Made by a program: the position numbers and the translations under genes. Positions 3,596-62,258 of a stretch of DNA of 64,000 nt are shown piece by piece; position 1 is the stretch's first letter; each line of letters starts with the position of its first letter. The notes under the pieces were generated by a model. It worked only from the letters and a program-made list of their open reading frames with translations. It did not search any database and had not been told where the DNA came from. The DNA comes from Methanosarcina barkeri str. Wiesmoor (GTDB lineage: Archaea > Halobacteriota > Methanosarcinia > Methanosarcinales > Methanosarcinaceae), in contig NZ_CP009526.1 in the NCBI RefSeq assembly GCF_000969985.1, forward strand, positions 1,550,001 to 1,614,000, written 5' to 3'.

Positions 3596-5048
3596 CATGC
3601 GTCATCGGTTAAGCATTAAATTCCCTCTCTTGTATGTGTTTTTTATATTAATAATTTAAATATCTCTGTATCTATGTCTCCTTGTCCCCCACCTACTCTT
3701 GAAGACTCTCTTCGGGAAATATTTCCCGAAGAGTGGTTAAGGCAAACTGCCAAAGAAACTGGTCTTATAGTACGTGAACGTAAAATTGACCCTGTCATTA
3801 TCTTTTGGGTTTTAACTCTCAGTTTTGGTGTACGCTTGCAGCGTACACTTGCCAGTTTAAAACGAGAATATGAAACTGAGTCACAAAAAACCATAAGTGA
3901 TAGCAGCTGGTACTATCGTTTTACTCCAGAACTTGTTGAGTTTCTTCACCAGTGTGTAATTCATGGCATGGAAGAGCTTGCAAAAGAACCTGGTAGGAAA
4001 CTTAGCAAGAAACTCGAAACCTTCCAAGATGTTGTCATTCAGGACATCACAATTGTTCGTCTCCATTCCTCGTTAGCAGACAGGTTTCCTGCAGCAAGAT
4101 CAAGAACAGTAGCTGCAGGAGTAAAAGTTGGAGTTATGGTAAGTGCAATTGCTAACGGACCTAGAACCATTGCTCTGTACTCTGAAAAAACAGCTGAAAT
4201 AAAGACATTAAAAATAGGTACCTGGATCAAAGACCATATTCTCCTTGTTGATCTTGGTTTCTACAAAACTCAAATGTTTGCAAGAGTTGAAGAAAATGGG
4301 GGATATTTTGTCTCAAGGATTAGGAAGAATATGGACCCTATTCTTGTTTCTATTGAAGAGGGACTTTCTAAGACAAAAAGCAAAGAGTTCGCTGGAAAAC
4401 CTGTTAGTGAATGTATTAAGCAACTTTCTGGAAAAGATATTGATGCAGTTGTAAAAATAGAATTCAAAAGAAGAGAGTATAAAGGCAAGCAAAAACAGGA
4501 CGAGATGATTGTACGTCTTGTTGCCGTATATAACGATGAGGATGAAAAATACCACATTTACATCACAAATATTCATAAAGATATTTTGAATGCAAAAGAC
4601 ATTGCAAACTTATATGGGGCAAGATGGGACATAGAACTGTTGTTTAAGGAATTGAAAAGCAAATACTCGCTGGACGTTCTTGAAACAAAGAATGTGCAGG
4701 TAATTGAAGCTCTAATCTGGACAGCAATATTGACACTAATCGTTAGCAGAAGAATCTATTCTCTTGTCAGAAAATCAACAACTCATCCTGAAAAAATGGC
4801 TAGATATACGCAGTTACGTTGGAGTACAATATTTGCAGAGAATGCATCAGATTTATTGACAGTAATTCTGCATAGATGTGGAATTCAAAGAACTTTTGAA
4901 ACGATAATGAGCGTATATGAAAGTCAAGCATTAGATCCTCATGTAAACAGAGAAAGGTTTAGAGATGAATGGTTTGAGTAATAAATGAAAAAGTGGATTC
5001 AAAAAGAGTAACAGAAGAAGGAAATAAATCCTTAACCGATGACCAATG
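3596..5048 (+). mobile_element. Complete IS4-family insertion sequence with 10-bp target duplication
   Basis: The element is 1453 bp. Its ends are inverted repeats sharing the perfect core GTCATCGGTTAAG (3601-3613) against CTTAACCGATGAC (5031-5043), with weaker matching inward for about 28 bp in all and outward to CAT/ATG. The flanks carry an exact 10-bp direct repeat AAAATAATTG at 3586-3595 and 5049-5058, as expected for a target-site duplication. One intact transposase fills the interior. Intact ends, duplication and reading frame suggest recent transposition. A diverged copy of one end lies near 31470. Confidence 0.9.
3674..4981 (+). CDS. IS4-family transposase
   Basis: This 435-residue DDE transposase cuts and rejoins the ends of the surrounding element. 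Candidate catalytic aspartates lie in VIQDITIVRL (about residue 124) and LLVDLGFYKT (about residue 193). The IS4 signature Y(2)R(3)E(6)K is perfect in YGARWDIELLFKELK (from about residue 313), which also supplies the catalytic glutamate. The reading frame is uninterrupted and the length is normal, so it could be active. No clear ribosome binding site precedes the ATG, which is common in transposase genes. Confidence 0.95.
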   Translation: MSPCPPPTLEDSLREIFPEEWLRQTAKETGLIVRERKIDPVIIFWVLTLSFGVRLQRTLASLKREYETESQKTISDSSWYYRFTPELVEFLHQCVIHGMEELAKEPGRKLSKKLETFQDVVIQDITIVRLHSSLADRFPAARSRTVAAGVKVGVMVSAIANGPRTIALYSEKTAEIKTLKIGTWIKDHILLVDLGFYKTQMFARVEENGGYFVSRIRKNMDPILVSIEEGLSKTKSKEFAGKPVSECIKQLSGKDIDAVVKIEFKRREYKGKQKQDEMIVRLVAVYNDEDEKYHIYITNIHKDILNAKDIANLYGARWDIELLFKELKSKYSLDVLETKNVQVIEALIWTAILTLIVSRRIYSLVRKSTTHPEKMARYTQLRWSTIFAENASDLLTVILHRCGIQRTFETIMSVYESQALDPHVNRERFRDEWFE

Positions 5049-59785: not shown

Positions 59786-60700
59786 ATTTTCCAGTTTACA
59801 AGAACGGGTATCAATATCTTGATTGAAATCCAGGCTAACAGCATCTTACGAGGATTTTTTACTTTATGTTTTTATTCCTTTAGTTCAACATTTCTTAGTA
59901 TCTCCAACTTAGGACTTACGCACTTGAGGAACAAAATAAATTATGTCAAAGACTGTAGGTTCGAGTCCGATTTTAAACAGTTATCTGTCTGATGCTGTTG
60001 ATTCTTCAGTTCAACTGCGTAAGTTTTTCAACTTATAAAATTAATATGGATTCATATGTATTCACCATTTAAAAAGTTATATGCAATTATTGGAATTTTT
60101 AGAAGTTCCACGAGTTATTCAAAATTAGATAGGTTTAAGTAGAGTATGTGGGGATACATTTTTTTGAATATCTGCCAGTATGCGAGGATACATTTTTTTC
60201 TGAATATCTGCCAGAATATTGTCGGTTTACTTCAAACATCCTCAACCTGAAGGAGGCTATCTTTAATTTAAATGCTCCTATATTTTAGTGGCAAAAAATG
60301 AGAGAAAAATTTAATTTTAAAACAACTTTTATAAAATTTTACAATTTGTGAGTTTACTATCTATGATTTTTAAGAATTGCCTTTATTAATTTTTATCAAT
60401 TTTTATGGATTAAAAATTTGATTTAAAGTTAATTACAGTTGCTTTTTATGGAAAAAACTCTATGTTATATTTTTAAAAAAGCTCAGTATATAATAAAATC
60501 ATAATTAATATTAAATTGTTGTCTGTTAAAAAAACATTTTACATAGGAATATTTTTTGTTTGCAAGCAATTTTTCATATAATTTATTTTAAATAAGTTTA
60601 GGGATAATTATAGATTGTAAACTGAAGAGAATAGGTCAAAACAAACTGATCAAAGAGAACAGATTTAGACGACGGTAAAAAACGGATGGATCAACACAAT
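59786..60700. other. AT-rich intergenic region with a small MITE-like element
   Basis: Apart from the inverted-repeat unit at 59911-60026 and a TACGAGGATACATTTTTTT(C)TGAATATCTGCCAG duplication at about 60148-60217, no feature is seen. No ORF is supportable. Confidence 0.35.
59911..60026. mobile_element. MITE-like element with ACTTACGCA ends
   Basis: GGACTTACGCACTTGA at 59911-59926 is matched by the inverted TTCAACTGCGTAAGTTTT at about 60012-60029. The ~115-bp interior has no ORF but contains GGTTCGAGTCC at about 59958, which looks like a tRNA T-loop. A tRNA is otherwise absent. Confidence 0.45.
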
Positions 60701-60736
60701 GGGAAATAACTGGTAGGGTATGTGAGTAAAGAATTG

Positions 60737-60862
60737 CCTGGAAGATGTCCTAATCCGAACGATATACTAATGAGATATTTTCGGAGTTACTGTATCGGGA
60801 GCTACAGTAAAAGGAATAAAACTCTTCCAGGTTCTTTCTAATCATTTTAAAGCGCTTTTTTA
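60737..60862 (+). ncRNA. Candidate structured RNA with a three-way junction
   Basis: CCTGGAAGA 60737-60745 pairs with TCTTCCAGG 60823-60831; inside it TCCT 60748-60751 pairs with AGGA 60812-60815. Enclosed are two hairpins: TCCGAA 60754-60759 with TTCGGA 60780-60785, and TTACTGTA 60787-60794 with TACAGTAA 60803-60810. The palindrome AAAGCGCTTT plus T-run at 60849-60862 may terminate it. A TATA-like ATATAATTTATTTT at about 60577-60590 may be its promoter. Strand is inferred from the T-run. Hand-folded, no family recognised. Confidence 0.5.
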
Positions 60863-61109
60863 GGATTTCAATTGCTTTTCATGGATTTCAATTTTTTTGA
60901 TTGATATCTTTTTGAACCTGCGCATCCGTAAAGCAAAAATTAACGTCAAACTTTTTTAACTAAAGTAGTCTTGAACAAAGTTATATGTCTGTTGGTTACA
61001 GAATCAAGAATTGGACTCAAGAATTTGACACCAACCGACATTTTCCATCCATAATTTATACGGACAATAGTAATATTTTTATAACTAGCATTCCTTATAT
61101 TCAAAAGAT

Positions 61110-61250
61110 ATGGGGAAAATGCACATGCAATTTTCAAAACAAACAAATAGACTGATACTTCTTATAGCAATACTAATTGCTATAATTGCTATCGGATATT
61201 ACTTCGTCTCAGTATCACATAATTTCGCCTTCAAAATAATTCATACATAA
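61110..61250 (+). CDS. Small membrane peptide, 46 residues
   Basis: The frame starts at ATG 61110, with further ATGs at 61119 and 61125; the last has GGGGAAAATGCAC upstream. The peptide holds MQFSKQTNRLILLIAILIAI followed by IAIGYYF, a single hydrophobic helix after a basic start. No family recognised. It could be a small membrane protein or the remains of a secreted protein's signal region. It lies 250 bp after the structured-RNA candidate and is convergent with the ABC ATPase gene. Confidence 0.4.
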   Translation: MGKMHMQFSKQTNRLILLIAILIAIIAIGYYFVSVSHNFAFKIIHT

Positions 61251-62066: not shown

Positions 62067-62183
62067 ACTTTTTCCACGCCTCATCAAAGTTATTGAAATT
62101 TAAACAGTCGGGGTTTTATTGACTCTTACAGTCAGGGTTTTATTGACTCTTTTTGATTTTAACTGCGCAAATTCTCAAATTTT

Positions 62184-62258
62184 ATTAGGTGATTATTAGG
62201 TGATTATTAGGTGATTATTAGGTGATTATTAGGTGATTATTAGGTGATTATTAGGTGA
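62184..62258. repeat. 11-bp minisatellite TTAGGTGATTA, about seven copies
   Basis: Perfect tandem units between the permease and ATPase genes. A duplicated block ending GGGTTTTATTGACTCTT occurs just beside it at about 62112-62152. Confidence 0.9.

Follow-up and report, generated by a model that had tools for sequence, protein, structure and literature searches.

An apparently new multicopy family of three-way-junction RNA genes in Methanosarcina

A structured RNA gene of Methanosarcina barkeri str. Wiesmoor is, to judge from sequence comparison, almost certainly one copy of a new, uncatalogued family of stand-alone noncoding RNA genes. The gene lies in the 64,000-nucleotide stretch of contig NZ_CP009526.1 (positions 1,550,001 to 1,614,000) that was analysed here and is called the window; the RNA occupies 60736-60832 and its promoter 60568-60595. 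The original prediction, which read this region as a novel structured RNA of no known family, is supported by the existence of the family, by covariation and by the absence of an Rfam match. The best overall explanation, to which we give about an even chance, is that the copies are co-regulated, trans-acting RNAs that carry twin G-rich loops for a common partner, more likely a protein. That the family is robust and new is well supported by the sequences compared; it would fall into the general kind of multicopy intergenic sRNA genes, with a twin-loop architecture that appears unusual.

By plain DNA search, 24 of 31 Methanosarcina genomes proved to contain related sequence, in many cases at several places. 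Twelve of these matches were used to build a covariance model, R1, which found 1-19 copies per genome in 30 of the 31 genomes. A second model, R2, was built from 48 copies with the window copy left out and was applied at a threshold of E <= 1e-4; it gave about 254 matches, 1-22 per genome, in 31 of 31 Methanosarcina genomes, and it matches the window copy at E 5.4e-15. Beyond Methanosarcina, the family was found only in one sister genus within the Methanosarcinaceae, where each of the four genomes has it; counted together with Methanosarcina, this makes 2 of 27 genera for the order, 2 of 39 for the class and 2 of 136 for the phylum sample; the model search returned it from 0 of 37 further genera in the class and 0 of 134 in the phylum sample. 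An Rfam search, proposed along with the original prediction, agreed with it: the Rfam 15 covariance models, at gathering score, left the window unmatched and matched nine paralogue loci only at a neighbouring tRNA. In M. mazei, 199 intergenic sRNAs have been reported (PMC5867862). Some family copies may be in that list as unnamed transcripts, which bears on priority but would not make the family known.

At the sequence level, the gene model begins with a promoter block and a leader. A Y-shaped RNA of about 120 nt follows, in which P0 and P1 form a long closing stem and P2 and P3 are hairpins, and a T-run comes last. Its parts in the window are the following.

60568-60595, plus strand: promoter block AATTTTTCATATAATTTATTTTAAATAA, an exact match to the family consensus, with the TATA box TTTTAAATA at 60586-60594
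60616-60728, plus strand: predicted 5' leader, from alignments and with its start placed by the archaeal TATA-to-start spacing of about 26 nt
60729-60733, plus strand: 5' strand of P0, AAGAA, with its partner TTCTT near 60833-60837 (family consensus AAGAA/UUCUU)
60736-60745, plus strand: 5' strand of P1, GCCTGGAAGA, with 95.4% of cells paired and double changes in 9 of 10 pairs
60746-60751, plus strand: inner extension of P1, TGTCCT, paired in the MFE fold with AGG and ATA in 60812-60818
60754-60785, plus strand: P2 hairpin, from the fold and covariation, with the stem TCCGAA (60754-60759)/TTCGGA (60780-60785)
60787-60810, plus strand: P3 hairpin TTACTGTA/TACAGTAA, with the stem 60787-60794/60803-60810 and the G-rich loop TCGGGAGC at 60795-60802
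60823-60832, plus strand: 3' strand of P1, TCTTCCAGGT, which closes the three-way junction in the fold and by covariation
60856-60861, plus strand: T-run, by its position a probable archaeal terminator

The region 60737-60862 has a fold energy of -31.7 kcal/mol, against -22.3 +/- 2.9 kcal/mol in 200 dinucleotide shuffles (z = -3.27, 0 of 200 as stable), and the median folding z of 45 members of the family is -4.2. A closed three-way junction with helices of 9, 4, 6 and 8 bp had been predicted, and the same helices (9, short inner, 6 and 8) are present in the computed fold. The TATA-like sequence noticed about 150 bp upstream likewise proved real, in that it lies about 145 nt 5' of the RNA and inside a 28-bp block that is conserved throughout the family. 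A terminator-like palindrome with a T-run stood only in part: both the T-run and the palindrome AAAGCGCTTT (60849-60858) are present, but in the alignment homologues hold other sequence at the position of the palindrome, for example TAAAGTGCTTTTTT and TAAAAGGGGTTTTC. Since homologues do not keep it, the palindrome was dropped as a functional part, and the T-run alone is likely to matter.

When 134 copies were aligned to R1, compensatory double changes were found in 22 of 24 pairs, including 6 of 6 in P2 and 7 of 8 in P3, and 90.5% of cells were paired. Because this alignment is fitted to the structure, more weight is carried by 48 copies aligned by MAFFT alone, an alignment that is not so fitted. 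Over an extended structure of 42 pairs, these copies have double changes in 31 pairs (6 of 7 in both P2 and P3) with 90.3% of cells paired, which bears out the covariance search proposed at the outset. The 160 double-change cells compare with 61.5 +/- 8.1 after shuffling, and the covariation score of 0.372 with 0.267 +/- 0.007 after shuffling and at most 0.123 for slid partners. RNAalifold recovered P1 alone from the raw MAFFT alignment, because P2 is shifted by one base in some copies, a problem that was solved by the structure-guided model. Double changes are also present in the family counterpart of the P1 inner extension, CGCUGAUC/GAUACAGCG. Judged from these alignments, the fold is under compensatory selection, and the window RNA has the closed P1/P2/P3 junction with compensatory changes that characterizes the family.

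The family consensus is AAGAAUUGCCUGGAGGCCGCUGAUCCUGCUCCGAAUCAAUAUGCUUGGGGGAGCAUAUCUUCGGAGCGACUGUAUUGGGGGAUACAGUAAAGGGAUACAGCGCCUCCGGGCUUCUUCU, in which the loop UGGGGG typically terminates both P2 and P3. Of 133 copies, 118 have GGGG in the P3 hairpin (21 expected from shuffled letters), 87 have it in the P2 hairpin (16 expected) and 77 have it in both. The clade of the window copy has lost the typical P2 apical stem and its UGGGGG loop and retains the P3 loop of this type (TCGGGAGC), so that not every copy needs both loops. The bodies of paralogues within a genome are only about 65% identical, and the closing stem P1 is kept in sequence as well as in structure.

The copies appear to be transcription units of their own, each made up of promoter block, leader, structured body and T-run. 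With up to five mismatches allowed, the 28-bp block AATTTTTSATATAATTWATTTWAAATAA stands in front of 118 of 130 copies and of none of 130 shuffled controls; its median distance to P1 is 78 nt, within a range of 59-199 nt that includes the window copy. The M. barkeri str. Wiesmoor genome contains 11 sites with at most three mismatches, and none for the reversed pattern; eight of the 11 lie before recognisable copies and three before copies judged by eye to be truncated or decayed. One further copy in this genome, at 4341952, is without a block site within three mismatches. A T-run (at least five T, no more than 70 nt from P1) was found for 117 of 130 copies, weakly above the background of 96 of 130 shuffled tails. 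Given that T-runs are nearly as common in shuffled tails, the terminator claim rests mainly on position. The 3' part of the leader, ACTGGTAGGGTATGTGAGTA, shows almost no variation within the window clade, and within that clade alone.

Several other features were observed in and around these units. Decayed RNA bodies, apparently dying copies, lie behind the promoter blocks at 1053630 (positions 3620-3900 of locus L073), 2132943 and 2968233 in the genome of the window. In the array of the sister genus (positions 4460-4580 of locus L065 and the rest of the array), the units have an inverted-repeat element, CTCTCCTG...CAGGGGAG, before the promoter block. In the window itself, a 14-nt inverted repeat, ACTTACGCACTTGA/TCAACTGCGTAAGT, with its arms 83 nt apart at 59914-60024, resembles a small transposon remnant, and GGACTTACGCA recurs in 15 of 178 loci, some of them beside RNA copies (e.g. 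L014 and L136). A 34-nt unit, AGTATGCGAGGATACATTTTTTTCTGAATATCTGCC, occurs twice in tandem upstream of the RNA gene at 60143-60214, and seven perfect tandem copies of TTATTAGGTGA lie at 62182-62258, just 5' of an ABC transporter gene.

The genomic setting of the copies bears on readings other than that of trans-acting RNA genes. No consistent gene follows the copies, and unrelated neighbours are found at different loci; 22 of 65 downstream genes of at least 150 aa are convergent, on the opposite strand, and 16 of the 65 lie on the same strand within 300 nt. Arrays of 3-7 copies, with no gene between the copies, are found beside tRNA-Gln, and many of the copies have their own promoter. In several species (loci L066, L067, L144 and L142, and relatives), the array is flanked on one side by a divergent tRNA-Gln gene and on the other by two genes that we take, from reading the protein sequences, to be HicB-like and UroD-like. 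The UroD-like gene is present without an RNA array in Methanolobus and relatives, where no family copy was found at the locus beside it. Further conserved positions are the locus of a MASE3-PAS-HisKA_2 kinase and sites adjoining CitMHS genes and genes presumed, again from their protein sequences, to be purH-like and idsA-like. The kinase locus is what would suit a cis-regulatory leader of the adjacent downstream gene, in that the RNA lies 108-297 nt upstream of, and co-directional with, the kinase gene in about ten genomes, all at one conserved locus. A cis leader or riboswitch would lie consistently 5' of related genes, whereas neighbours and orientations are mixed at the other loci, copies have their own promoter and usually their own T-run, and the next large gene downstream in the window is on the strand opposite to the RNA; this reading is improbable. 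At nine of the loci where MASE3 kinase genes stand beside the RNA, the kinase genes have apparent CTG or TTG starts, with a conserved ribosome-binding-like GGGGG(C/T)AA upstream.

The original prediction had also offered the RNA as a cis-element for a 46-residue membrane peptide downstream. This option found no support, as the RNA is retained (88% identity) in genome G003, where the peptide is missing; it was rejected also because the RNA comes with a promoter and T-run of its own and relatives of the peptide occur only at the orthologous locus. The predicted 1.3-kb stretch is indeed gene-poor, from 59786 to 61110, but the ORF of 46 residues at its end shows conservation among related loci. 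The peptide (61110-61250, plus strand) has 76-80% identity in three orthologous loci, with in-frame codon loss in two orthologous loci, and is absent from the G003 locus. For 119 of 134 copies of the RNA the nearest relative is in another genome, which together with the roughly 65% identity within genomes suggests that the copies are mostly old; they seem to have been kept vertically at syntenic positions, with some recent duplications. It is thus very improbable that the family is a mobile or selfish repeat with no cellular function, although copy number is high and variable, a few pairs within a genome are very similar and some copies are decayed. Compensatory selection on structure also argues against such a repeat, as does the lack of copies in viral, plasmid and phage collections with the queries used: no match was found in plasmid and phage collections, two exact patterns returned no family member from IMG/VR, and two viral contigs carrying the exact P3 loop string gave no covariance-model match. 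A small protein gene misread as RNA has a negligible probability. The window copy does have a 35-codon open frame through the structure, but core lengths modulo 3 number 55, 42 and 37, the same frame averages 1.5 stops, and base changes follow pairing; a coding reading is refuted for the family by the absence of a common open frame and of conserved lengths.

Two readings concern RNA partners for the G-rich loops. The copies could be paralogous base-pairing sRNAs in the style of Qrr or sRNA154, of which the G-rich loops or the leader pair with mRNAs and alter translation or decay. M. mazei sRNAs of known function act in this way (PMC3510493, PMC5867862), and the leader sequence ACTGGTAGGGTATGTGAGTAAAG is nearly invariant inside the window clade. 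However, the leader differs between clades, so that the G-rich loops are the only antisense region the copies could have in common. In the M. barkeri str. Wiesmoor genome there are 15 occurrences of the exact complement, TCCCCCAATA, four of them opposite RNA copies, against six for a reversed control; the counts are near chance and define no clear target set. Base pairing is thus possible but rather unlikely. It is decidedly improbable that the RNAs are directed to the ribosome by pairing of their GGGGG loops with the anti-Shine-Dalgarno CCUCC of 16S rRNA. The 16S 3' end of the same genome, GGATCACCTCCT, would allow it, and a five-pair loop duplex is predicted at -8.4 kcal/mol, but this is without a clear margin over a shuffled loop at -7.4 kcal/mol, a perfect Shine-Dalgarno sequence reaches -15.1 kcal/mol, and the loops keep GGGGG instead of the better GGAGG.

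In the preferred reading, that of co-regulated RNAs with a common partner, each copy would give a transcript of about 200-250 nt, and the shared promoter would switch on all copies together; a promoter common by descent need not imply co-regulation. The two identical UGGGGG loops of P2 and P3 would then be offered in trans to one common partner, which may be an RNA-binding protein, scaffolded or titrated by the RNAs as in systems of the CsrB/RsmZ type. Action in trans is likely, given the mixed strand and distance of neighbouring genes and the arrays in which many copies have promoters of their own. Copies that otherwise differ have in common their shape, the P1 stem and the G-rich loops, suggesting a common partner that reads these features. 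A protein is favoured over base pairing because clades have different leaders and the loop complement shows no clear enrichment in the genome of the window, and binding to a protein is given somewhat less than an even chance. Loop binding alone does not explain the sequence conservation of P1. A search for CsrA/RsmA matched 0 of 12 genomes, nine of them Methanosarcina, with the controls E. coli, B. subtilis and T. maritima matched, and CsrA was rejected as the partner because the protein was not detected in these 12 genomes. A search for ANTAR proteins matched 0 of 31 genomes, with the control genomes equally silent.

The presence of 1-22 copies in every Methanosarcina genome searched, normally each behind the one distinctive promoter, points to an important RNA function. 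Archaeal sRNAs of known function are few. This family is shared by all of the best-studied methylotrophic and acetoclastic methanogens, among them several that are genetically tractable. With its strong covariation, its signature promoter and its 1-22 copies in each genome, it provides defined genes for experiment, and the covariance model allows annotators to mark about eight overlooked RNA genes per average Methanosarcina genome. Should the loops bind a protein, archaea would prove to have a type of post-transcriptional control that has so far not been described in them.

Known RNAs resemble the family in part. CsrB/CsrC and RsmX/Y/Z are redundant, co-expressed RNAs with repeated identical G-rich loops on serial hairpins, which carry the motif ANGGA and need CsrA/RsmA. 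The new family shares the repetition of identical G-rich loops, but its loops are UGGGGG, its junction is closed and CsrA/RsmA was not detected. ANTAR-binding RNAs have two adjacent hairpins with six-base loops, and these hexaloops need A1 and G4. Two adjacent, similar six-base loops are also found in the new family, some loci of which are near HisKA_2 kinases; its consensus loops, UGGGGG, have U1 and so lack the ANTAR signature. The Qrr RNAs of Vibrio are encoded by several paralogous sRNA genes with alike promoters and use a common linear base-pairing region in an Hfq-dependent manner. The paralogous genes behind alike promoters are shared, whereas what is common to the copies of the new family is structure and loops.

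Within Methanosarcina, there is likeness in gene organization to sRNA162/sRNA171, which are intergenic, paralogous sRNA genes of similar length (191 nt) with conserved promoters (PMC3510493). The sRNA162 of M. mazei has a serial arrangement of SL1, SL2, a 39-nt single-stranded linker and SL3, and homologues are reported only in M. acetivorans and M. barkeri (PMC3510493). Compared with this published description, the window fold does not have the SL1-SL2-linker-SL3 order, and the new family is set apart by its closed three-way junction and many copies. The available portions of two accounts describe the sRNA154 of M. mazei as having a stable structure of which two loops act on nitrogen-metabolism mRNAs (PMC5867862, PMC11456600). 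Conservation in Methanosarcina and functionally relevant loops are points of likeness, and in those portions sRNA154 is described with neither a multicopy array nor a three-way junction. As a tentative and rather doubtful proposal, the family could be a genus-defining, co-regulated set whose members each show the UGGGGG loop twice on a three-way junction. These RNAs would then be one half of a so far undescribed regulatory system of RNA and protein in archaea, which would follow CsrA/CsrB-like logic with another protein.
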